Part shown: one piece after another, positions 17,868 to 53,341 of the stretch | How positions within the stretch are numbered: the stretch's first letter is position 1 | Layout of the letters: every line of letters begins with the position of its first letter | Assembly: GCF_026210795.1 (NCBI RefSeq) | Contig: NC_089443.1 | Span: forward strand, 2,604,001 to 2,668,000 | Source of the DNA: Rhizophagus irregularis | Taxonomy: Eukaryota; Glomeromycota; Glomeromycetes; Glomerales; Glomeraceae | Direction of reading: 5' to 3' | Length of the DNA stretch: 64,000 bases | The notes under the pieces: model-generated | The model's input: the letters and a program-made list of their open reading frames with translations, nothing else | Databases searched by the model: none | What the model was told of the DNA's origin: nothing | Translations under genes and position numbers: made by a program

Positions 17868-18659
17868 TATTGGTGACCGATTAGACTGATTGATATTTTC
17901 ACCAAATACCATCACAGTTTGCTAACTTTTGATCTAATGATCAGAAAAGGATGAAATATAGTTCATTGGAATCGTCTTAACAAAATGAATCTAATGGTAA
18001 TAAAATTGCATTTCTAGAATTAATACTTGATAATAAATTAAGTAAAATATAAATAATACAAATCATCATCAATCTTCATTAAAAAATTATGCAGAAATTA
18101 TAAAATCACAGAACTGTGCAGATCTGCACCCTAAAAAATTTCCTGATGTTATTAAGAACTTAATTTTCTTTCAAATATATTTTTATTATAAATAAGAACT
18201 TCACAGAAATTTCTGTATTTATAAAAATTATTTGATCTAATACAAATGTATAATTTTCAATTTAAATAATAAATATTTTAATAAATAAAACTAAAAATCA
18301 AATTTTGCATTTTTATTAAAAATTATCTAAAAAACAGCCTTTTTGACTTTAAACAAATCTCTTTTTGTAAATTTACATATAGAATAATTATTTAATATAT
18401 ATAATTTATTGTTTAATTTAAGAAAACTCTTTTTGCAATGGTCTATAATTATTTTTTTTCTAAATAATAAAATTTTATTTTTTTATTTTTATTTTTATTT
18501 TTTGCTTTAATAATAAACTTTTTTTATTTTTCTTTTCTTTGTAATATTTCTGAACTCAAGATGGTCTGAAGAGGCATATCATTTAGAATAACTTAGATTA
18601 AAAAATAAAAAATTAGGCATCAATCGTTACCAATTAGTTACCAATCGATAGTGAGGATC
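17868..18659. other. AT-rich spacer with relic repeat ends
   Basis: No gene. Sequences near 17580-17625, 17870-17920, 18610-18655 and 20155-20210 share a GATTGGTGAC / TTACCAATC motif. They look like parts of an older repeat into which the MITE at 17628 and the element at 18660 were inserted. Confidence 0.35.
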
Positions 18660-20734: not shown

Positions 20735-21830
20735 GTTAGAATGGTAAGTACAGGAAGGGATTCATGTTTTTTTTATTTTTGAAATGTTGCTAACGTTTCT
20801 TTTCGCTTTTTTACTTTAGGGATGAGTTCCTGGACTTCAATTTTAGCCTGAAACTCTGGAATGGTAAGTACAGAAAAGGATTTGTATTTTTTTTATTTTT
20901 GGAACATTACTAACGTTCCTTTTCGCTTTTTTACTTTAAAAATGGGTCCTGGACTTTAATTTCAGCCTGGAATTCTGGAATGGTGAATACAGGAGAGGAA
21001 TTCATATTTTTTTTTATTTTTGGAACGTTACTAATATTCCTTTTCACTTTTTTACTTTAGGGACAGACTCTTGGACTTCAATTTCAATCTGAAACTCTGG
21101 AATGGTGAGTACAGAAAGAGATTCATATTTTTTTTATTTTTGAAGCTTTTTTACTTTAAGAACAAGCTCCTGGACTTAAATTTTGGCCTAGAACTCTGGT
21201 GGTGAGTATAGGAAGGGATTCATATTTTTTTTATTTTTGGAATGTTATTAATGTTTCTTTTTGCTTTTTTTCTTTAGAGATGGGCTCCTGGAGGACCCTA
21301 CCTACTATTAAGATAGGTCATCCTGTAGTCTAAGGTAAGGTTTACATATAAAACTCTTTGAAGATCCTATTATAAAAGAAAATTTTATGTTACATTGTTA
21401 TGATTTTTTTCCTTTTTAGTCAATTAACCAATAGAATTTAAGCAAATCCTAAAGTAAGGTTTCATATGAAAGTGAATTTTTACTGGTAACATATCTTAGT
21501 AGTAGGCAGGGTTCTGCTCCTGAACTTCAATTTCAGCCCAAAACTCTGGAATGGTGAATACAAGAGGAGATTTGTATATGAACTGTAAGTTGAATGAGAG
21601 AGAGATTTTTTTTAAATTGAAAATGTTACTGATGTTCCCTTTCTTTTTTATTTTTAGAGACTCTTGTTTACAGCTATTGAATACTGAATTTTAGAATAGG
21701 ACTGATAGTAAGTAGAATAGAAGGGTATTTTTTTAGATTAGGAATGTTATTAATGTTCCCTTTTTTTTTCTTTAGGAATGTGACTTTTTGGATAATAATA
21801 CGAACTGTAAGTTGAATAGGCGAAGGAAGA
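20735..21830 (+). repeat. Tandem exon/intron-like array, about 7-8 units of ~120 bp
   Basis: Each unit has a 44-nt core (CTGGACTTCAATTTTAGCCT...CTCTGGAATG) followed by GTAAGTACAG, GTGAATACAG or GTGAGTACAG. Then come about 75 nt containing TTGCTAAC, TTACTAAC or TTATTAAT, and a pyrimidine tract ending TTTACTTTAG. This is the layout of donor, branch point and acceptor. Cores begin near 20820, 20940, 21060, 21160 and 21280. One unit has lost its AG (TTTAA) and one lacks the branch region. Two more divergent units follow (about 21590-21830) with GTAAGTTGAAT donors. A MITE sits in one core (21292-21515). No long ORF supports translation. Confidence 0.7.
21292..21515. mobile_element. 224-bp MITE with 8-bp TSD (AGGACCCTRCC family), copy 1
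   Basis: The TIRs are AGGACCCTACCTACTATTAA and, at the other end inverted, AGAACCCTGCCTACTACTAA. The flanks are GCTCCTGG and GCTCCTGA (21284-21291, 21516-21523), a duplication of 7 of 8 bases. It sits exactly in a core of the exon/intron-like array. Other copies are at 57645-57869 and 58851-59077. The 8-bp TSD suggests hAT. Confidence 0.82.
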
Positions 21831-22212
21831 AGATTCTAAATGAATATTTATCAGTGAAGAATCAGGATTTAATATGTTGACTGGATATGTATGATAAGTG
21901 GCCAATAGGTTATTGATAGGTAAACGATTTATGACTAATTGGTATATATAAGTAGAAATGTATGGTTTTATATTATTTAAAGTGACAAAGAGTTTTACTT
22001 GCAATGTAATTCTAATATAAATAGTATAAATGCATTTTTATTAAATACTAGCCAGTTTAAAATTGGTAATTACTTAAATAGCCAATAAAATTAATAATTA
22101 TTGTTAATCATGTGGTAATAAGTATAGCGAACATCCCGATTTTATCACAATTTTGCTGATCATCTGTAGATCATTTGTTGATCATTTAATCAATTTTATC
22201 ACTTCGCAATAA

Positions 22213-22537
22213 TTAAGTTAATTAACTTTGATTGGAAAATTCAACATAATAATATATACTCAAATTTTATATACAGTTTAATATTGGTTTGAAATTACTG
22301 TATATAAAATTTTATTTGGATCGCATTACTATTGGATAACTTTTACTAGTAGAAACTTTTAAATTTTAAGCATTTTTATTAAAATTAAAAGTTTCTATTA
22401 GTAAAAGTTATCCAATAGTAATGCGATCCAAATAAAATTTTATATACAGTAATTTCAAACCAATATTAAACTGTATATAAAATTTGAGTATATATTACAT
22501 TGTTAATTTGTAATTTTCAAATCAGTTAATTAACTTA
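22213..22537. repeat. Large hairpin, arms about 150 bp
   Basis: The segment from 22213 to about 22365 reappears nearly perfectly inverted from about 22383 to 22537, for example GGATCGCATTACTATTGG against CCAATAGTAATGCGATCC. The loop is under 20 bp. A diverged direct copy of one arm lies at about 22559-22680 and overlaps the 3' end of the adjacent gene fragment. The hairpin therefore seems to be made from the gene's own tail. Confidence 0.85.
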
Positions 22538-22644
22538 ATATAATAGCATATTTACTGTTATGTTAAGTTAATTAACTTAAATTGGAAAATTCTACATAAT
22601 AATATATGCTCAAAATTTTCAAACAACTTATTATTGATTTGAAT

Positions 22645-23321
22645 TTACTGTGTATCAAATTTTATTTGGATCACATCATCTTCTGTTTCTAACATATTAT
22701 TAAATTCATCAGAATCATAAATTGTTTTTTGTTTTAATATTCTTTGATTTTTATAAAGAATATTAGACATTTTTTTAATTTTGTTACTTAAACTAATTTC
22801 ATCTGTAATTGTTAATTGTGATATAATTTCTTGATAATCTGATTCAAATTGTTTTAGTTCTTCACCATTATATAAAATATCTTTTCTAAATGAATAAGTA
22901 TGATTTCATTCGTTAAAATATTATCATCATCCTTTTTTTTGGAAATTGGTGCAGTATATTCTTCTAACATATTATAATCAGGATCATTATCTGTTTTTTT
23001 TCTGCACAAACTACAAATTTTAGCAGTCTCATCTAAATTTAAAATTGGTATTAATCTTTTTGGTATCTTTTCAAGATTAAGGTTTTTTGATCTCTTATTT
23101 GCATTTTTTGATTGGCTTTTATATTCATCATGCTTTGGATGAGAGCAAGTTTCATTATGTTTTAGGCTATAAGCCTCATTAATAATAAATTTATTATAGT
23201 GAGTTTGACATAATTTCATGCCAACTAAAATAGTTTTTTTTTATGTTATTGGAATTTTTGTATTATTAGTTATTGTCCTAATTACTTCTTTGCAATCAGT
23301 TGAGTTAAAATTGCAGGACAT
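22645..23321 (-). pseudogene. Cys-rich protein gene fragment inside the MULE-like element
   Basis: Starts at ATG 23321 (MSCNFNSTDCKEVIRTITNN). It has an in-frame TAA after about 29 codons, then runs on as MKLCQTHYNKFIINEAYSLK...ICSLCRKKTDNDPDYNM. A frameshift near 22890 leads to LYNGEELKQFESDYQEI... and a stop at 22645. Cys pairs (CSLC) suggest a small metal-binding module. I do not recognise the family. The stop and frameshift make it a pseudogene, possibly transposon cargo. Confidence 0.5.
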
Positions 23322-24789
23322 TTTTTTTGAATAAAATTTCAGAAATTTAAAGTTAAAAAAGTGTTATTTTGTATTAAGTTAAAAAAAATAATATTTTTTA
23401 TATTAAATTGAATAATAATATTTTATATTGAAAATGATGTTAATTTTATAAATATTTCTTGTGAATTTTTTAAAGGACTATTTATAAAAAAGTGAACCAT
23501 ATAAATTTTAATCATTTTACTTTATTTATTTATTTTATATTGTTAATGAATTAATTCTTAAAATAGTTCATAAGATGTGCCAAAAATTAACCTTATTAAC
23601 CTTATAACAATTGCAAGTCTTTATTTAATGATAACTTCTTGGTTATTAAAAATTATTCTTGGTTATTTTAGCCATTAATTCTTGAATACCTAATTAATAT
23701 ATTGTAAAAGTTTCAAATTTCGCTCGAACATCTGTGGCTTCGCCCGAAGCTCCAAAGTCCGATTAAGAAATGATCAGCATATATATCAAATATTGAAAAT
23801 TTCGGCCTAAGGCTAACTTTGGCGCCACATTTTATTTTGCTACAAAATTTTTATACTAAATTATTAATATATTATACTATTAAAAAAACAATTTAAAATA
23901 ATTTTTTAGAATATTTATGGCCTGGAATAAAGTCTCAAAATTAGTGTGATATCACATATAATATGATCAGCAAATGATCAGCAAGGTGATATAAGCATGT
24001 TCGCTATGCTGTGGTAATATGATTTTTTTATTTATTTTTCACGTATTTTTTTTTTCTTAACTCTTTTCTCTTAAAATTTTATTTTATTGTTTTGTGTAAA
24101 ATAAATACAAAGGTACATTTTTCTTCTTTTTTATTATACTATTAATATTTTTAACACTTCTTTTCTTCTCTTCCTAATATGTTTTCACTGGTCGGAATAG
24201 TCCATTTCGGCAAAATTTTAAATTGCCGAATGTTGGACGAAATTTAGTCTAACCTTAGCCGATCAGTACCAAAAAAATCGGCAACTAATTTTATAGGCGA
24301 TTTGCATCATAACGCCTGCCACTTGTCAACAAATCGATCAGTAAAATTAGTAACAAATCGGTAAAACCAAATTTGACGATTGTTAATAATCAACTTAATT
24401 ATTACCGATTTTGTATATTTAGTATATTTAGCTAATTTTAATTTATAATAACAATTTATTAATTAAATTTTATTAATTTGCTTTATATATTAAAATTACA
24501 TATTAAATCTATCTACTATCCGTCGTCCACTATTCCATCATTCACTACACGCACCCGCCACATTACCTACTATTCATCACCATTCTTACCACCATCCTTA
24601 CTGACCCAATAAAAGTCTAATCCACAAAGATCTGGAAAACTTACAAAACAAAAAAAAATAAAAAACAGTTAGTAAACCATCCTTTATTTAAAAAAAAATT
24701 TAGTTTCGAAAATAAACTTACCGTTTATTCAACAAAAATCCAAAGAAAACCTAAGTAAAAAATAAAGAAACGGTTAGTATACCGATTCT

Positions 24790-25930
24790 TTAATAAAAAA
24801 ATAAGTTTCGAAAATTTTCAAAACTTTACCTGGAATATCGGTATCCACGCTGAAATCGATTTCCTACAAAAAAATATAATAAAAAAAAGTTTCAAAATTT
24901 TTTGAAACTTTACTTGGGAAACAGTACCATACTGGAACTGAATTTCTGCAAAAAAAATAAATAAAAAAAATCGTTTTTTGTTATTAAAAATGTTTTTTTT
25001 TAATAAAGTTTCAAAATCTTTTGAAATTTTACCTGGAATATCGGTATCCATACCAGAACCGAATTCCTACAAAAAAAAATAAAAAAATAACATTTTTTAT
25101 ATTAAAAATGTTTTTTTTTAATAAAGTTTTAAAATCTTTCAAAACTTTATTTACCTGAAATATTGGCATCCATACCGGAACTGAATTCCTACAATAAAAA
25201 AATAAAAAATAACGTTTTTTATATTAAAAAATGTTTTTTAATAAAGTTTCGAAATTCTTTTGAAACTTTTTTACCTGGAAAAACAGTATCCACACTGGAA
25301 CCAATTTCCTATAAAAAAATATAAAAAAAATCGTTTTTTAGCTAAAAAATGATTTTTTTTAATAAGTAAGTTTCAAAAATCTATCGAAACTTCACTTAAG
25401 GAAACGGTATTCACGCTGGAACCGATATCTCTACAACAAAATAAAAAAAATGTTAAAAATTAACATTTTTTATATTAAAGTTTCAAAAATTTTCAAAACT
25501 TATCTTTGGGATTCAGTATCTACGCTGGAACTGATATTCCTATAATTAAATATAAAAAAACGTTTTATTAAAAACGTTTTATTAAAAAAGTTTCAAAACT
25601 TTAGTTTTGAAACTTACCTGGAATATCGGCGTCCACGTTATTGGAGCTGATTTTCTATACAAAAATGAAAAAAAAACGTTATTAATATTAAAAAACGTTT
25701 TTTTTATAAAGTTTCAAAATTTTTTTTCGAAACTTATCTGGAACATTGGTATCCATGTCGGAGCTGATTTTCTGCAAAAAAAACAAAAAAAACATTTTTT
25801 ACGTTAAAACATTTTTTTTTAAAAGAAAGTTTCGAAAGAGTTTCGAAACTTACTTAAAATATCAGTATCCACGCTGAAACCAATTTTCTTTGCAAAAAAA
25901 AATAAAAAGAAACGTTTTTTAGTTAAAAAA
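24790..25930 (-). repeat. Array of about 10 exon-like modules (element A)
   Basis: The period is about 110-125 bp. On the minus strand each module reads pyrimidine tract, then GTAG, GCAG or ATAG; then a 32-37 nt core of type GAAATCGGTTCCAGCGTGGA-TACCGATATTCCAG; then GTAAA or GTAAG (about 7 of 10; the rest are mostly ATAAG), then TTTCGAAA. Cores lie near 24835, 24915, 25035, 25155, 25280, 25400, 25510, 25625, 25745 and 25865. The inter-core parts carry hairpins built on GTTTCGAAAC and AAACGTTTT. Core lengths vary, so a constant reading frame is not kept. Confidence 0.75.
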
Positions 25931-25943
25931 ACATTTTTTTTAA

Positions 25944-26527
25944 TTGCTGATCCGCCTAAAAACGGCACTGCATTACTAATAAAATTCGGGGATAATAGCG
26001 ATAATAAAAAAAAAGCATTTTTTGCATCTCGCGCGCGAAATAAGTTTCACCCATTTTACAAATAGAAATATCATAAAAACAATATTTTCTTTCATTTTAT
26101 GACAAGTCATATTTGCCAAAAAATTTTATAATTATATTTCTGTAACTGGTTTTCTTCAACTTTCACTGTTTTTAATAATAAAAATATTTCAAAAAAGCTT
26201 TTAAAAACAACTTTAGAAGCTAAAAATTATAGGTTTTTATTATAAATAATGCAATATAGTAAAATGAAATATTGAAATTTTGTATATTTTAAGGTGTAAA
26301 TCTGACGCGCGCGCATAGTAAACTCATTATTTTGCATACGAATGTATAACTTTTTTTTGCAAATTCATTTTTTTCAAGTATTTTTTCAGTATATCATATG
26401 ATTTTTTTTTATAGTCAATATATCATCTATGAGATATCCTTTTTTGAAGTTTGTGTTCTGCATCGGTCGGCAAATTTAACCCCAAATTTTATTAGTAACG
26501 CAGTGCCGATTTTAGGCGGATCGGCAA
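25944..26527. mobile_element. 584-bp piggyBac-like MITE (TTGCNGATCCGCC), copy 1
   Basis: TIR TTGCTGATCCGCCTAAAA, with the right end inverted (...TTTTAGGCGGATCGGCAA). TTAA lies on both sides (25940-25943, 26528-26531). The TIR extends about 45 bp through GCACTGC-TTACTAATAAAATT. A second copy in opposite orientation is at 61641-62227. It is nested in CACTGG element A. Confidence 0.88.
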
Positions 26528-27177
26528 TTAAGAAAGTTTCGAAATTTTTTGAAACTTTACCGAAGAAACGTATCACGCCAGAACTAATTCCCTAAACAAA
26601 AAATATTTAAAAAAACATTTTTTAGTTATAAAACGTTTTTTTAATGTTAAAAAACGTTTTTTAAAGAAAATTTTGAAACTTTTTTGATTTAATTAAAAGT
26701 TACCAAATTCAATGTGTACATTTACATGAAGAACTAAGGTGTAAGAAAATGAAGGGAAAGGATAAAGAAAAGGAGGGAAGCAAGCGAAAGGTTCAAAAAG
26801 TTTAAAAAAGTTTGTTGATCTAGATCATCTGATGATTTTCAGTTATTTACCAACTGATTTGCCGAATTATTGCCAATTAGTTATTGATTTTTACCGTTTG
26901 GCAAATTTGGCAAAATTGTGTTGATTTATATGACCAATCAGTATAATTTCACTAAATGATCTTAAAGAAACAATTTTTCATATAACAATCGGTATAAGTT
27001 GATTTTTCACCAAAAGATTGAACAAGTATTTGTTTAACAATCAGTATCAGTCGATTTGTGATTGATTTTACCGATTTTTGCCATTGGTCAAAAAATGTGA
27101 CGAATCACATGACCAATCGGCAAAAATTATGCCGAAAGCTCTTAACAGTCGAAAATTTTGATTTTGACCAGTGTTTT

Positions 27178-38970: not shown

Positions 38971-39156
38971 TATGGTAAAGAATTTGCAAGGATAAGCGAT
39001 ACTGCATTAATTATCACATCTTTATAAACGAAAATTAAATTCACCTCAGGTGAAAAAAAATTTAAAATCACCCGAGGTGAAATAATATTAAAATTTATTT
39101 AAAATAACCCAGGGGTGAAATTAAATTTAAAAATTAAAGTAATCACCTCGGGTGTA

Positions 39157-39396
39157 AGGTTGCTTGTCTAAACCTCTTCAAAATCCTACGATTAGTTTCG
39201 TCAAAATTTTACTATAGATTTATTATAGTTTTGGCAGAGTTTCGGCAGTTTCGGCATTTATAATAAGTTTCGGCAGTTTCGCCTTTCTCCAAAGTTTCGC
39301 CAGTTTTTTAATATAACTTTAATATAGTTTCAGCAGAATTTCGCTTTTCGGCGAAACGCCATCTTGCCTAAACCCCTAGGTTTCGGCAAGCAACCT
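39157..39396. mobile_element. 240-bp mariner-like MITE, copy 2
   Basis: AGGTTGCTTGTC... to ...GGCAAGCAACCT with TA on both sides (39155-39156, 39397-39398). Same orientation as, and nearly identical to, copy 1. It is inserted among the CACCTCGGGTG motifs upstream of the MULE transposase. Confidence 0.9.
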
Positions 39397-42202
39397 TATT
39401 CGGGTGATTAAAATTAAAAATAATCTGGGGTGAATTTTAAATTAATTCTTATATAAAATTGTGAAATGTAGTACAAAATTAACACTCACCGTTAGTGAAA
39501 ATAAAATAAAAATTAATTATAAATTCAATATATAATATTTTAAAAAGTTATATAAATATGAAAAATAAGCAATTAAAAACTCTTAGTATTTAAAAATAAT
39601 ACCAAAAATATGCAATTTAATTATCTTACATAGTATAAAATTTTCTTAAAATTAAGCATTATAAAATTCTTACATCATAAAACTTTACTATGTTGGCTAA
39701 GCACCTTGGTACCTTACATATATAAGTATTTTCCAGGGTCTTATTTAGAATAGTATTCCAATCTGAGGATATCCGTCACCATTTTATCTGATCCGATTAG
39801 AATCCACCATCTGTTTATCTGATCCGATTAGAAATCCAACATCTGGAATATCTGCATAAGTATTATCCGGATCATCCGGATCATCCTTAAGGAATATCTG
39901 GATTATCTGTTAATACCATTAAAATTTGTATATTATATAATTCCAGCTGGCATTAACTGATCAGTACTGGAATTTCCTTTTTTGGATACTTGTACAATAA
40001 GAATTCCAATTTTCACAGAAATCAAAATTTCTTTTTTTGGAAATTTGTGTAATGTCACGTGATTTGGCGGGATCTGAATCATTATAAATTAAATTTGTTG
40101 GATATCCGTCAGATGAATCTGTTATTATCTGTCATCCGAGAAATCCGATCTGTTATTATCCATCATCCGTGTGATCTGATCTGTTAACTTATCCGTTATC
40201 CATATAACCACCAATATCCAGATTAGAGTTATGATCCAGTCAAATCCGAATGATCCAAATTGCATTTGGTCAAAAACATAGAATCTATATTTAGATCCTT
40301 ATTTGTTCAAAAAAAAAAATTCATCTGTATATATTGTACGGATAAACTGGATTTGAACGGATAATCAGATTTGACAACGTAATACAGGTCACAGGATGCA
40401 AATAATAAAAAAATTTTCATATACGCATATTTTCGCTTCATTATTTTATTATTTTATTGTAAATTTGTATTGTTAATTTGTATTTATTATCATATTAATT
40501 GTATATATTACATTATATTAGTTTTTTGGTAAGAATGGTTTGTAAATTGTATCCAAAATATTGTAATTTCTTTTCAAAAACATTATTCTTTTAAAAAATT
40601 CTGGACTGATACGTGTTCTCTTAAGACCCATTAAATTTCCGCAATCTGAAAACAGTCTCTCACTTGGAGTTGAGGTAGCTGATACTGAAAGATAAGCACG
40701 TGCCAATTCACTCAATATTGGAAATTTTTCTTTGTTAATTTTCCACCAGGAAAAAGGATCAATATTAAATGGTATTTGTGGAATAGCAAGATATTCATTA
40801 AGTTCATTTCGGTTATTAGCAGGTGATGGATGATTAAAAATATCAAAAAGGGTTGATTTATAAAGTGTAGAGGATGGTGTAGGACCAAGAAAAGGAGTGG
40901 TAATTGTAACAGGCATAGGAATTGGAGAAGACTGTAAATGTGATGACATACTAAGTTTCATCTTCCTATACTTGTTTTTTAAAGAGTTCAGAGTTTGCTC
41001 TATTTCATATGGTGCAAAATCAAGCTTTTTAATCCGAGGATCAAGAATTGATAGTAGGTATGATATTTCACGTTCATTTTTCCAATAAAAGAGCATTGCT
41101 TGATATAAAGTATCTTTCACTTTTTTTAGAACTCCTGAGATTTGCATGGGCTGATTTAAATCTACATTTTTTTGATGCTCATTAGTATTTTTTTCATTAT
41201 TAGGATTATTTGGATTGTCTTGATCTTCATTCCATACAAAGACATCTTCCAAATTTTCGATATTAATATTCATTGTATTTTCGTTAGGTTCATCGGGTTT
41301 AAGCTTGTTAATAATTTCAGTTATCAAAGGTTTCATAATACTGTGAGTAGAATAATTACTACCTCTAAGATACCGGTTGCTTCTTCAAAAGGTCCTAATA
41401 TAAAAATTAAATCACGAAGTAAATCCCATTCATCATTTGTTAGCATCACTTTGGTTAATCTTTGAGAATCCTTTTTTGAGTCTTGATCAGTTTCTTCAGC
41501 TAGATTAGCTTCAAATGTACGAATATATCCTTTTAACTCTAAAAGTTGACACTACGCTAAGTAACTGGAATTCTAATGTGTTGGGACATCAGCAATAACA
41601 TGCCTTAAATATTTTGCTGTTTTTCCTGCATCCTAAATTATATAATATAAATTAATATTTGAAAAGACTATGTAAATTATAATTTATTACATTATAGAAC
41701 TACATGTAATTTAATAAAATTAAACTTACTATAGGAGTCCTTGAGGAGCTATTGGAATTCTAATATTACATTGAATTTAAATTAGAATATAATTAAAATT
41801 AAAATTAAAATTTAATATATTGTATTTGACTTAAACTTACTGGCTGTATAAATTGTTTTTGAATTTTTTCAAGACGTTCTGATTGCTTCGGACTCATAAA
41901 AAAATCAATAAGACGTTTAGTATGACTAACTAGTGATTTAATAGGCGCCAGACCTTTTCCGACTACAAGTTGTAACGTGTGGGCAGTACAAGGCTGCCAC
42001 ATTATATTTTCTGCTGCCAACTCCAAATCTTTGATAGCTTTTCGCATATTAGAACCGTTGTCTGTAGTTATCATAAAAGTTTTATCCCGAAGTCCTTATT
42101 CATTTAACACTGCAAGTAATGTATCACCAATATGATCAGCTGTATGGGGATATAAAATATATTGAACCGAAAGGATAACTTCATGAAGTTAAAATTCAGG
42201 AT

Positions 42203-43111: not shown

Positions 43112-44174
43112 GGGTCCAGTATATTACGTCATCCCCTATATGGCAAAAAATTGGAGATCATCTTTTTTTTACTTTCGTTACAAGAAAAAATTTTTTAATA
43201 TTTTTCAAACTCCTGCTTAAAAATATCTGTTAGAGAGCCAAAGTTTCTGGTTTTTCAAATAAACTTTAAAAAAGTATAGTATAAATATAGTTTACAACGA
43301 AAAACTACCATATGAAGTTAACAGTAGTTGCGAATTCTCTAAGGTAAGTTGCGAATTCTCTAATTAGACTAACTTTAAATTAACTTAAAACTTGCGAAAC
43401 TTTGAGACTTAATAATATAGTAATTAGTTAAATAATTTATATCAAAAAATTAGCAAGCATCATATTCAAATAAAAATTTTTACTAATACCATTTATTTTT
43501 TTATTATCTTAAGCGTATTTGTTCTTTTAAACTAAATACAAAATATTTCATGTGTTGTGAAGTAATAATTAGATTATTATAATTTTATAATGAAATGGAA
43601 AGGCAAATAAATTAATTTAATAACTTTGAATTATATATTTGGCGTTTGTGGAGTTATTATTTTTAATGTACAATTAAGGTTGCTTGCCGAAACCTAGAGG
43701 TTTAGGCAAGATGGCGTTTCGCCGAAAAGTGAAATTCTGCCGAAACTATATTAAAGTTATATTAAAAAACTGGCGAAACTTTGGAGAAAGGCGAAACTGC
43801 CGAAACTTATTATAAATGCCGAAACTGCCGAAACTCTGCCGAAACTATAATAAATCTATAGTAAAATTTTGATGAAACTAATCGTAGGATTTTGAAGAGG
43901 TTTAGACAAGCAACCTTATGTACAATATCAATCAAGCAAATGGTATTTTCATTAAGTTTTGTCAATAAAATATATAGAAATATTTATAAATGGTTAAAAT
44001 GTAGATAGGATGCATTATATTTATTATTTGAACGTATATTTAATAAAATTCATATGGTAGGTTGGGAAATATTTTATTTTTCCAAGAGTTTTCTCGTCAA
44101 TTTCGTGGTCACGTGATCATATAAAATGATCGTCATATGGTCATATACAAATGATGACGTAATATACTGGACCC
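43112..44174. mobile_element. 1063-bp TTAA-flanked element (GGGTCCAGTATATTACG)
   Basis: TIR GGGTCCAGTATATTACGTCA and inverted TGACGTAATATACTGGACCC. TTAA is on both sides (43108-43111, 44175-44178). Removing it rejoins the hAT frame (...KRIK-LNERRG...). The TTAA TSD suggests piggyBac. No transposase is present. A mariner-like MITE is nested in it. Confidence 0.88.
43677..43916. mobile_element. 240-bp mariner-like MITE, copy 3 (inverted)
   Basis: AGGTTGCTTGCCGAAACC... to ...GACAAGCAACCT, in opposite orientation to copies 1 and 2. TA flanks at 43675-43676 and 43917-43918. It is the innermost layer of a three-level nest: MITE in TTAA element in hAT. Confidence 0.9.
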
Positions 44175-48460: not shown

Positions 48461-48840
48461 AAATTTTACACAATAAATAATTCACTAATAATTATGGTTA
48501 TGTTATTTTTTACAATAAAAACTATTAAATATTAAATTAGTAATTGTGACTATATGATTGATTATTAAATTACAGTAAAAGACACTGGTCGAAATAGTCC
48601 AAATCGGCTAGAAATCGGATGTCCGATTTTAGGCTGAATTTGGTGATAAATATGGCCGATTTATTAATTTAGGCAAAATTCTGATTGGCAGGCCGATCGA
48701 TGCCGATCAGAATGTCTGAATTGTATCTGAATTGCTTAGTATTTTTAATCCGAATTGTTTAAAAAATATTATTCATAAATTTACCGAATTGCAGTGAATT
48801 TATTCTGAATTATGGTAAATTTGTGACAAAATTTTCTGAA

Positions 48841-49060
48841 TTGTAGTAAAATTTATTCCAAATTGTAGTAAAATTTATTCCGATTTGTAGTAAAATTTAT
48901 TCCAATTTGTAGTAAAATTTATTCTGATTTGTAGTAAAATTTATTCCGAATTGTAGTAAAATTTATTCCGATTTGTAGTAAAATTTATTCTGATTTGTAG
49001 TAAAATTTATTCCGATTTGTAGTAAAAAATTTATTCTGATTTGTATTCTGAATTGTATCG
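48841..49060. repeat. 22-bp tandem repeat
   Basis: About nine head-to-tail copies of TTGTAGTAAAATTTATTCCG with small changes, spaced 22 bp (48841, 48863, 48885 and onward). Subterminal in element B, so possibly a transposase-binding array. Confidence 0.85.
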
Positions 49061-49129
49061 CAAATTACAGTAAATTTTATTCTAAAATTTAAAATATTAC
49101 ATATACATATAAAACAATTTCACCAAAAA

Positions 49130-52000
49130 TCATCCCAACTTTCTAACAAATCCGGTATACGTTAAATTCCTTAATTCCCATTTGTTTCTACAAATTGGAG
49201 ATGATTTTCCTACAAAAAAAAAAGAAAAAACATTAAAATAACGTTTTTTTTTAAGTTTCAAGTTTCAAAAATCAAAACGTTACCTGTAGGATGGCAAATC
49301 GAAGCCAATTTCCATACAAAAAAATTAATAAAATATAATAAAAAATGTTAAATTAAACATTTTTATTAAGTTTCGTCAAAAAGTTTCGAAAAATCGAAAC
49401 TTTACCTGCGGAGATTCCGGTACAATTTGGAGCTGATTTCCTGCAAAAAAAAATAATAAAAAATAATAAAAAAAACGTTAAATTAAACGTTTTTTTATTA
49501 ATTTGTGTCAAAAAGTTTTGACGAAACTTTACCTGCGGGATTCTGGTACAATTTGGAGCTGATTTCCCTGCAAAAAAAATAATAAAATCTAATAAAAAAA
49601 CGTTAATTTAAACGTTTTTTATTAAGTTTCATAAAGTTTCGAAACTTCGAAACTTTACTTGCGGGATTCCGGTATCCAATTTGGAGCTGATTTCCTGCAA
49701 AAAAAATAATAAAAAATAATAAAAAAAACGTTAAATTAAACGTTTTTTTTATTAATTTGCGTCAAAAAGTTTCGAAAATCGAAACTTTACTTGCGGGATT
49801 TCGGTATCCAATTTGGAGCTGATTTCCTGCAAAAAAAATTAATAAAAATAATAAAAAAACGTTAAATTTAAACGTTTTTTTATTAAGTTTCGTAAAGTTT
49901 CGAAACTTTAAAACTTTACTTGCGGGATTCCGGTATCCAATTTGGAGCCGATTTCCTGCAAAAAAAAAATAATAAAAATAATAAAAAAACGTTAATTTAA
50001 ACGTTTTTTTATTAATTTGCGTCAAAAAGTTTCAAAAATCGAAACTACTTGCGGGATTCCGATATCCAATTTGGAGCCAATTTCCTGCAAAAAAATTAAT
50101 AAAAATAATAAAAAAACGTTAAATTTAAACGTTTTTTTATTAATTTTTTTCAAAAAGTTTCAAAAAATCGAAACTTTGCATGTGGGATTCCGGTATCCAT
50201 ATTGGAGCTGATTTCCCTGCAAAAATATTAATAAAATATAATAAAAAACGTTATATTAAACATTTTTTATTAATTTTTTTCAAAAAGTTTTGAAAAATCG
50301 AAACTTTGCATGTGGAATTCCGGTATCCATATTGGAGCCGATTTCCTTGCAAAAATATTAATAAAATATAATAAAAAACGTTATATTAAACGTTTTTTAT
50401 TAATTTTTTTCAAAAAGTTTCGAAAAATCGAAACTTTGCATGTGGGATTCCGGTATCCATATTGGAGCCGATTTCCCTGCAAAAAAAAATAATAAAATAT
50501 AATAAAAAACGTTATATTAAACATTTTTTATTAATTTTTTTCAAAAAGTTTCGAAAAATCGAAACTTTGCATGTGGAATTCTGGTATCCATATTGGAGCC
50601 GATTTCCCTGCAAAAATATTAATAAAATATAATAAAAAACGTTATATTAAACGTTTTTTATTAATTTTTTTCAAAAAGTTTCGAAAAATCAAAACTTTGC
50701 ATGTGGGATTCCAGTATCCATATTGGAGCCGATTTCCCTGCAAAAAAAATAATAAAATCTAATAAAAAAACGTTAATTTAAACGTTTTTTATTAAGTTTC
50801 ATAAAGTTTCGAAACTTCGAAACTTTACTTGCCGGATTCCGGTATCCAATTTGGAGCCGATTTCCTGCAAAAAAAAATAATAAAAAATAATAAAAAAAAC
50901 GTTAAATTAAACGTTTTTTTTATTAATTTGCGTCAAAAAGTTTCGAAAATCGAAACTTTACTTGCGGGATTCCGGTATCCAATTTGGAGCCGATTTCCTG
51001 CAAAAAAAAATAATAAAAAATAATAAAAAAAATGTTAAATTAAACGTTTTTTTTATTAATTTGCGTCAAAAAGTTTTGAAAATCGAAACTTTACTTGCGG
51101 GATTCCGGTATCCAATTTGGAGCCGATTTCCTGCAAAAAAAATTAATAAAAATAATAAAAAAACGTTAAATTTAAACGTTTTTTTATTAAGTTTTGTAAA
51201 GTTTCGAAACTTCAAAACTTTACCTGCGGGATTCCGGTATCCAATTTGGAGCCGATTTCCTGCAAAAAAAAAATAATAAAAATAATAAAAAAACGTTAAT
51301 TTAAATGTTTTTTTATTAATTTGCGTCAAAAAGTTTCGAAAATCGAAACTACTTGCGGGATTCCGGTATCCAATTTGGAGCCGATTTCCTGCAAAAAAAA
51401 TTAATAAAAATAATAAAAAAACGTTAAATTTAAACGTTTTTTTATTAATTTTTTTCAAAAAGTTTCGAAAAATTGAAACTTTACTTGCGGGATTCCGGTA
51501 CCATATTGGAGCCGATTTCCCTGCAAAAAAAAATAATAAAATATAATAAAAAACGTTATATTAAACGTTTTTTATTAATTTTTTTCAAAAAGTTTCGAAA
51601 ATTCGAAACTTTATGGTATTCCTACAATAATATTAAAAAAAAAAACGTTAAATGTTTTTTTCAAAGAAGTTTCGAAAATGCGAAACTTATCTATAATATC
51701 GGCGTCCACATTGGAGCCGATTTCCTATACAAAAGTAAAAAAAAACATTTTTAGTAATATTAAAAAACGTTTTTTAAAGTTTTGAAACTTTTGTTTCGAA
51801 ACTTATCTTTGGAAATTGGTATCCAAGTAGGAGCCGATTTCCTATATAAAAGTATAAAAAAAAATGATAGAAAACGTTTTTTTTTATAAAGTTTCGAAGA
51901 AATTCTTCGAAACTTACCTTTGGAATTTGGTATCCAAGTAGGAGACGATTTCCTATTTAAAAGTATAAAAAAAAAACGTTAGAAAACGTTTTTTAAAGTA
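49130..52000 (-). repeat. Array of about 21 exon-like modules (element B)
   Basis: The mean period is about 130 bp (the phrase GGAGC falls at 49429, 49555, 49683, 49815, 49944, 50073, 50204, 50334, 50464, 50595, 50725, 50853, 50986, 51119, 51248, 51377, 51508, 51713 and 51830). On the minus strand a module is poly-T then GCAG; a core GAAATCGGCTCCAAATTGGA-TACCGGAATCCCGCAA (36 nt in many units); then GTAAAGTTTCGA; a hairpin TTTCGATTTTCGAAA; a hairpin AAACGTTTAATTTAACGTTT with a TTTAAC branch-like site; and a T-rich tract. Units at 50.2-50.75 kb have GCAAAG in place of GTAAAG. Open frames on either strand are by-products of the periodicity. Confidence 0.8.
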
Positions 52001-52434
52001 ATAGTTTTGCAAAAAAAAAATTAATAAAATCAGAACGTTAACTAATGTTCCGATTGAAAATATTAAATGAAAAGTTAAAAAACGTTTCGTAAAAAATAAA
52101 AATGTTAAAAATTGGAACATTATTTCCGATAAAAAATTAAAAAAAATCCCAAAACGTTTAAAACCGTTTTGTTTAGGAATGAAGTTAGATGAAGATAAAG
52201 TTTCGAAACTTTAGTTTAAATAAAGTCTAAATTTGGTAATAGATCAACTAATTGCCAGATTAAATTTACTGTGGCTGCGGCTTAGTACATCATAAGTTGA
52301 TTTTGAAAAATCGTTTATTCGAATAACTTCTGAAATTGAGCCAATTTTTCCATGCCCGAAAGTTTTGATTTCGACCAGTGCAATTTGATATAAAAGTGCC
52401 ATAAATCAGACAATATTAGGCAAATTTTAAGCTG

Positions 52435-53150
52435 TTAATCAAATATGATAATTTTTTGCTAAATTTTTATTGAATTTTTATTGAATTGTCAATTTTCCAT
52501 AAATCTGAAGTACATATTTGAATATTGTAAATTTTAGGTTGATTTACAAATTTGTCAGATTTTTTTTTGATATCAATCAGCCGTCAATCAAATATAATGA
52601 TTTTTTGACAAATTTTTGTTGGATTTTTATTGAATTTTTATTGAATTGTCAATTTTCCATAAATCTGAAGTACATATTTGAATATTGGGTAAATTTTAGG
52701 TTGATTTGCCATTTTGTCAGATTTTTTTTTTTAATTTCAACCAGCATCAATCAGCCATCAATCAAATATAATGATTTTTTGCTGAATTTTTATTGAATTT
52801 TTATTGAATATTTATTGAATTGTCAATTTTTCATAAATCTGAAGTACATATTTGAATATTGGGCAAATTTTAGGTTGATTTGCTATTTTGTCCATTTTTT
52901 TTTTATTTCAACCAGCATCAATCAGCCGTCAATCAAATATAATGATTTTTTGCTGAATTTTTGTTGGATTTTTATTGAATTTTTATTGAATTGTCAATCT
53001 TTCATAAATCGGAAGTGCATATTTGAATATTGGGCAAATTTTAGGTTGATTTGCCATTTGTCCATTTTTTTTTTTGATTTCAACTAGCATCAATCAGCCG
53101 TCAATCAAATATAATGATTTTTTGCTGAATTTTTATCAAATTGTCTGATT
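52435..53150. repeat. About 170-bp tandem repeats, 4 units
   Basis: AAATCTGAAGTACATATTTG recurs at 52501, 52661 and 52834, and in changed form at 53005 (spacing 160-173). Each unit also has TTGATTTGCCATTTTGTC and CATCAATCAGCCGTCAATC. It lies just inside the right end of element B. Not coding. Confidence 0.8.
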
Positions 53151-53341
53151 GGCATCAATCAGATGTGCCGATTTATAATATTAGTCAATTTTGGTCTGAT
53201 TTTTGGCCGATTTTCCATATGTCCGATTTTTTTGATTTCGACCAGTGAGATTAAAATTCAGTGAAATGATTTTCAGAGAGATGATTTTTGGTAAAATAAC
53301 TCTGTTGGTAAAATGATTTTTGATGAAGTGACTGTCAGTAA

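Follow-up and report, generated by a model that had tools for sequence, protein, structure and literature searches.

A tandem array of micro-exon/intron-like units as candidate non-coding, splice-competent cargo of a CACTA-like transposon in Rhizophagus irregularis

Why should a DNA transposon contain a long row of units that look like very short exons separated by introns? The question is raised by a locus in the window, the whole stretch of 64,000 nucleotides of Rhizophagus irregularis DNA analysed here, for which a preliminary description had claimed about 21 tandem micro-exon/intron cassettes inside a CACTGG transposon. From a strand reading and a scripted list we count 22 units on the minus strand, each ~130 bp, over 49170–51952 (core limits, the last approximate). 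The intron-like signals proposed for them are present, with the right size and in the right order: T tract, GCAG or GTAG/TATAG, core, GTAAAG-like donor, and two palindromes, the first AAAGTTTCG...CGAAACTTT and the second, of type AAACGTTTAATTTAACGTTT, containing a TTTAAC branch-like site. Tandem Repeats Finder reports periods of 130 (17.8 copies) and 261 (8.9 copies) over 49303–51613, and a diverged continuation of the array at 51713–51986. The first row of the unit list (53175) was excluded as a chance match, and a degenerate fragment near 51610 was not counted.

The units are not uniform, and the drift in core length and loss of donors remarked on earlier are both borne out. Cores are mostly 36–37 nt, with some shorter variants; YAG adjoins the core or lies one base before it in 20/22 units (it is lost at 50345 and 49312), while donors are GT in 14 units, GC in 5, AT in 2 (51841 and 51724) and absent from the last. 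Both YAG and GT are intact in 13/22. For units ending in CCCGCAAGT the scripted boundary falls at GCAAGT, and the following GT was read as the donor. The five GC-donor units are adjacent on the minus strand, from 50736 to 50215 (approximately 50180–50740; strand reading and scripted list). That the array exceeds chance is nonetheless clear from an intron-chain scan of the element: on the array strand 7 acceptable GT-AG introns follow one another, whereas the opposite strand and the reversed sequence each give 1 and none of 12 shuffles gives more than 1.

The carrier is indeed a CACTGG transposon, but it is larger than first described. It spans 4,665 bp (48583–53247, minus strand), with ends CACTGGTCGAAAT...GACCAGTG on the array strand, an outer end at 53247, and the target site duplication (TSD) AGA on both sides (48580–48582 and 53248–53250, from flank reading). 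Between the outer 5' terminus and an inner one lie 171-bp tandem repeats (52572–53134; Tandem Repeats Finder). The inner terminus, CACTGGTCGAAATC, is on the minus strand at 52350–52380 (stretch end approximate; CACTGG at 52380); it and its identical flank are common to most young copies, so the amplified unit is composite. The genome searched comprised 146.7 Mb in 32 contigs. It contains CACTGGTCGAAATAGTCC at 55 places (reversed control, 0), and a 571-base query from the 3' part of the array gave at least 18 further whole-length matches at 86–98% identity. The family has CACTA/CACTG-type termini, CACTGGTC...GACCAGTG, and its 3-bp TSD is identical in 16/16 copies with both ends present, of 27 stretches tried. 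Termini of CACTGG type with a 3-bp TSD are characteristic of the CACTA/EnSpm group. Among the ORFs listed for the element, the two longest have 130 and 104 codons and run across repeat units; we take the element to be non-autonomous. Plavaka domains are abundant in the genome (123 matches); a by-eye comparison of their places with the 55 termini showed no adjacency and yielded no autonomous partner for the CACTGG element. Rfam gave nothing above its thresholds for the window element, and three matches to a bacterial leader, below the gathering score, were taken as chance. The element thus resembles non-autonomous CACTA/EnSpm (CMC) elements in its CACTG-type termini, its 3-bp TSD, its putative lack of a transposase and the repeats behind its terminus, whereas its interior, a one-sided exon-intron-like array, sets it apart.

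Does the array encode a protein? A micro-exon gene whose repeat peptides (EIGSKLDTGIPQ repeats) vary in length had been suggested, and some features seem to invite this reading: 36 nt is a multiple of three, as are the lengths of 11/14 chain exons in one group and of 53/126 summed over ten groups; the core is open in all frames, and 13 joined exons of locus L020 give 154 open codons. However, at least one of 200 shuffles of L020 also reaches 154 codons (shuffle mean 63), exon lengths are mixed within arrays, and the exons do not keep to multiples of three as coding exons of the schistosome type would. Substitutions were counted among 39 unique 36-nt exons, with those that differ from the core by over 8 changes excluded from the count. 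Of 25 distinct substitutions, 6 are synonymous when read in the frame proposed, with 7.9 expected; outside CpG the count is 3 of 17, with 4.2 expected. In a sister family of hAT-like elements, described below, exons are mainly 32, 42 and 43 nt and contain stops, and the longest open stretches (52–71 codons) fall below the shuffle means (67–84). An ATG-bearing exon-like stretch (MEPPKKKIFYFDKDN... in one frame) does precede a 44-nt exon array in one related element (L026, positions 176–300), but among the loci examined it occurs only there and in L028 and L030, and the three are 98–100% alike. Joined exons, synonymous excess and length modulus all fail, and we regard a protein-coding micro-exon gene as hardly credible. 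Schistosome micro-exon genes string together numerous very short coding exons of symmetric length. The rows of short exons are alike, yet the window exons are without coding signal, and the analogy drawn in the preliminary description does not extend beyond exon size.

The window contains two more arrays. A second CACTGG element (24186–27173, minus strand), with CACTGGTC termini and matching 3-base flanks, holds a diverged array whose exons measure about 34 nt. The better genome matches of this element are ~70–93% alike, and of 11 copies tried the 3-bp TSD is present in both of the 2 that could be scored. Inside the element (25945–26522) there seems to be a nested insertion, the ends of which are long and inverted. 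A third, unrelated-looking array, with exons near 44 nt, is on the plus strand at 20739–21330. Beside it is another foldback-like element, a large inverted repeat (22210–22676) whose 157-nt arms are 87% complementary and 14 nt apart.

The third array is ~66–72% similar to arrays at five other loci, L041–L045, which lie between TAGAGGTG termini. The 8-bp TSD of this family, read by eye, matches at 8/8 positions in L044 and at 7/8 in L041 and L043, with no match in L042; the 3' end of L045 was not found. We call L041–L045 hAT-like because of the TAGAGGTG termini with 8-bp duplications. At a further locus, L071, the array is flanked by TAAGGTTGC termini, and the 8-bp duplication is ATTATTAC (8/8, by eye). 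Like non-autonomous hAT elements, the carriers L041–L045 and L071 combine short TIRs with 8-bp TSDs in most readable copies, L042 being the exception; they carry a similar array inside, yet are distinct from the window element. Short elements in the window have the same TAAGGTTGC termini as L071, with 8-bp duplications: one at 43675–43918 (duplication TGTACAAT, 8/8), one at 39155–39398 (7/8), and a third copy that ends near 17869.

We scanned 60 stretches (57 loci and three stretches of the window) for intron chains. Chains of at least three GT-AG introns occur in 56/60, with a maximum of 2 in 12 shuffles of each. Reversed sequence gives a chain of three in 4/60 (L007, L025, L027 and L064); for L025 and L064 the true chain is no longer than this. 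L031 shows a four-intron chain on both strands. In eight loci with host chaperonin genes the longest chain is two. The hAT-like loci L041–L045 reach 18, 20, 16, 11 and 19 consecutive predicted introns in a first scan and 18, 15, 16, 11 and 18 in a second. Most loci were picked for their likeness to an array, which leaves about ten independent families; in these, donor, branch-like site, T tract and acceptor follow in order on one strand.

A search for a palindrome with TAAC, T tract and AG finds 1,130 places genome-wide, and 54 in reversed form. With AG written GA there are 607 places (reversed form, 39), although many of the listed GA rows, by eye, have an acceptor AG within them or AGA at their end; this control is therefore contaminated, and less clean than the reversed form. 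A stricter ACTAAC form is found at 36 places, with 0 in reversed form. Nine of the 36 were examined: seven are in arrays by eye, five reach a three-intron chain, and a clear host gene around the pattern was seen by eye in none of the nine. Near-identical palindrome-plus-acceptor pieces also lie by contig ends (G000 C4:36023, C6:54321, C17:114729, C19:64523 and C2:6119414) and, with L068 among them, are perhaps a subtelomeric array family. The arrays are thus a wider class, present in other transposon families also, which the preliminary description had not anticipated.

These comparisons bear on another idea: that the units serve to bind transposase, as the subterminal repeats of CACTA elements do, and that their resemblance to splice sites is only a by-product. 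CACTA elements have repeated binding sites near their ends, and each unit here contains palindromes. The array, however, is one-sided and takes up the interior of the element; across families, acceptor, donor and branch-like site recur in order around exons that differ; and arrays are also found in hAT-like elements. We consider this explanation quite improbable.

If the spacers are spliced, their splice signals should stand out from the rest of the unit, as the preliminary description had proposed. Conservation was computed over modules found by a profile search, which replaced a first regular expression that had found 31; removing hits that overlapped or lay on the opposite strand took the number from 353 to 191 for the second CACTGG family and from 726 to 384, of which 352 unique, for the window's family. 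Since modules are related, the values that follow are not independent counts. For the 85 hAT-like modules, the donor GTAAGT is conserved at 1.00 at all six positions and the acceptor A/G at 1.00/0.98, compared with 0.91 for the exon and 0.93 for intron T. For the second CACTGG family (191 modules), acceptor A/G reaches 0.98/0.95 versus 0.79 for exon G/A outside CpG, with donor G/T at 0.78/0.78 and intron A and T at 0.89 and 0.87. In the window's own family (352 unique modules) the values are 0.95/0.97 for the acceptor, 0.98/0.64 for the donor and 0.89 for the exon; intron A and T (0.94 and 0.93) are close to the acceptor values, and the low donor T reflects the GC-donor block. Finally, in the third array family (18 modules) the acceptor is at 1.00/0.85, the donor at 0.86/1.00 and the exon at 0.89, several donor positions being no better than the exon. 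Greater conservation of AG and GT therefore holds for the hAT-like family and for the second CACTGG acceptor, and is mixed or absent elsewhere; the former two support splicing, and the other signals are neutral or against it. In three of the four module families conservation is lowest at CpG positions, which is what methylation of the elements would lead one to expect.

Compensated and mispaired double changes number 33/24 and 16/11 in the two palindromes of the second CACTGG family, 20/21 and 28/6 in those of the window's family, 1/1 in the hAT-like family and 0/3 in the third array family; no Fisher test of within-family pairing of the arms is significant. Maintained pairing within families was accordingly rejected: the arms decay independently, without covariation. 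In an arm-swap test over 251 sites, a palindrome's own stem averages 5.31 and stems swapped within the group are 0.83 shorter (p = 1.5e-9, uncorrected for relatedness); shuffled arms give 3.21. Little or no excess is seen in 2 of 12 groups (W20, 4.00 vs 3.93; L068, 4.20 vs 4.45).

The spacers resemble introns, contain inverted repeats and exist in very many copies, all of which recalls introners, and the preliminary description had considered formation of the array from duplicated introner-like units. On one version of this idea each spacer is an introner-like mobile intron, and the array arose by its repeated insertion. Exons, however, repeat along with the spacers; in the sequence read, no single spacer has its own termini or target duplications; and, by eye, none of 18 gaps between chaperonin-gene matches in the same genome contains a paired AACGTT palindrome. 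We find such an origin very unlikely. Introners, as available accounts describe them, connect DNA transposons with sequence that resembles introns (Gozashti et al. 2022, PMC9860276); they are single introns in genes, whereas the window spacers are tandem, inside a transposon and flanked by non-coding exons. The main text of that survey does not contain the name Rhizophagus. SP7 effector genes, as described in the literature available to us, are likewise an unlikely source of the array.

Is the array transcribed? Behind it lies a 22-bp tandem repeat (48834–49045, minus strand, 9.5 copies), most units of which contain AATAAA on the array strand, and which is possibly a polyadenylation region. 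AATAAA occurs 12 times in sense and 0 times in antisense within 48,583–49,130. In 15 of 17 young copies (the remaining 2 lack the end), the last 560 bp hold 11–16 sense occurrences of A[AT]TAAA versus 0–1 antisense; the preceding 2,640 bp of those copies hold 14–22 in sense, all as raw counts. In 6/11 loci of the second CACTGG family a possible first exon follows a CT-rich stretch, and 5 of the 6 have the donor GTAACTTTT. The motif [TC]GGA is present in 97/126 exons versus 29.5 by shuffling (summed over ten groups, with related exons inside each) and in 18/166 introns; it is above expectation in nine of ten groups. Together, the AATAAA bias, the first-exon candidate and the [TC]GGA motif would fit a spliced non-coding RNA.

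The termini and TSDs, the further copies, the strand-specific order of splice signals, the lack of coding signal and the arrays with other exons elsewhere are all observed. Judged from these features, the array is slightly more likely than not to be cargo carried by a non-autonomous CACTA-like transposon that moved recently: a non-coding, splice-competent transcription unit, built from tandemly duplicated exon-intron units and spread by transposition. The array strand would be transcribed, the 70–100-nt spacers removed as ordinary GT-AG introns, and the 30–45-nt exons joined into a non-coding RNA ending in the AATAAA-rich stretch. Unequal exchange between units, suggested by the 261-bp two-unit period and the homogeneous blocks, would alter their number, and transposition would spread the whole. 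As a guess at the benefit, good introns might let the transcripts escape splicing-coupled RNA surveillance. Several observations count against splicing: 9/22 window units are without an intact acceptor or donor, five of them with GC; the donor of the second CACTGG family is not conserved above the exon; and the third family shows no clear excess.

Some of these observations also feed the main rival, a passive relic, in which one captured multi-intron gene or non-coding gene supplied a unit that was amplified as an internal minisatellite, its splice signals inherited and neither used nor selected. Broken donors in 8/22 window units (five GC, one absent among them), independent CpG decay in the palindrome arms, the unexceptional donor of the second CACTGG family and homogeneous blocks, as tandem exchange predicts, all agree with it. 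A relic does not readily account for about ten array families that keep one signal set around different exons, nor for a donor at 1.00 in 85 hAT-like modules; and the carriers differ in termini and TSD lengths, which a single capture does not explain. We regard it as possible but doubtful.

For the preferred reading, a spliced non-coding cargo, there is a partial precedent. In Cryptococcus, as far as the accessible text goes, stalled splicing of transposon introns recruits RNAi (PMC6232588), so that what becomes of transposon RNA depends on splicing quality. In that system silencing is set off by poor introns, while evasion by good introns is what we propose for the window arrays. Among repeats of R. 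irregularis, two-thirds are unclassified according to the parts consulted of PMC11075540. Two published accounts of its transposable elements name CMC-EnSpm and hAT, one also Plavaka, and in the portions available to us contain no word starting with intron or splic. The literature searched, by title and start of abstract and with partial coverage, gave no description of such arrays; related work, likewise seen in part, comprises PMC11333574, PMC3886924, PMC8786786, PMC9860276, PMC8647823, PMC11075540 and PMC6232588.

A broader and more speculative reading, which we think rather unlikely as a whole, is that non-coding spliced micro-exon arrays form a genome-wide class, the shared cargo of unrelated CACTA-like and hAT-like transposons, in which rows of good introns, whose branch site often lies in a palindrome, would license the RNA past surveillance. 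We know of no transposon class that carries rows of working introns without coding. If these arrays are spliced, transposons of R. irregularis would do just that, coding for nothing. In that case the persistence of a transposon would be tied to splicing quality control, new genes would have in the arrays a natural stock of ready-made exon-intron units, and the arrays would help to explain the unclassified repeats of Rhizophagus irregularis.
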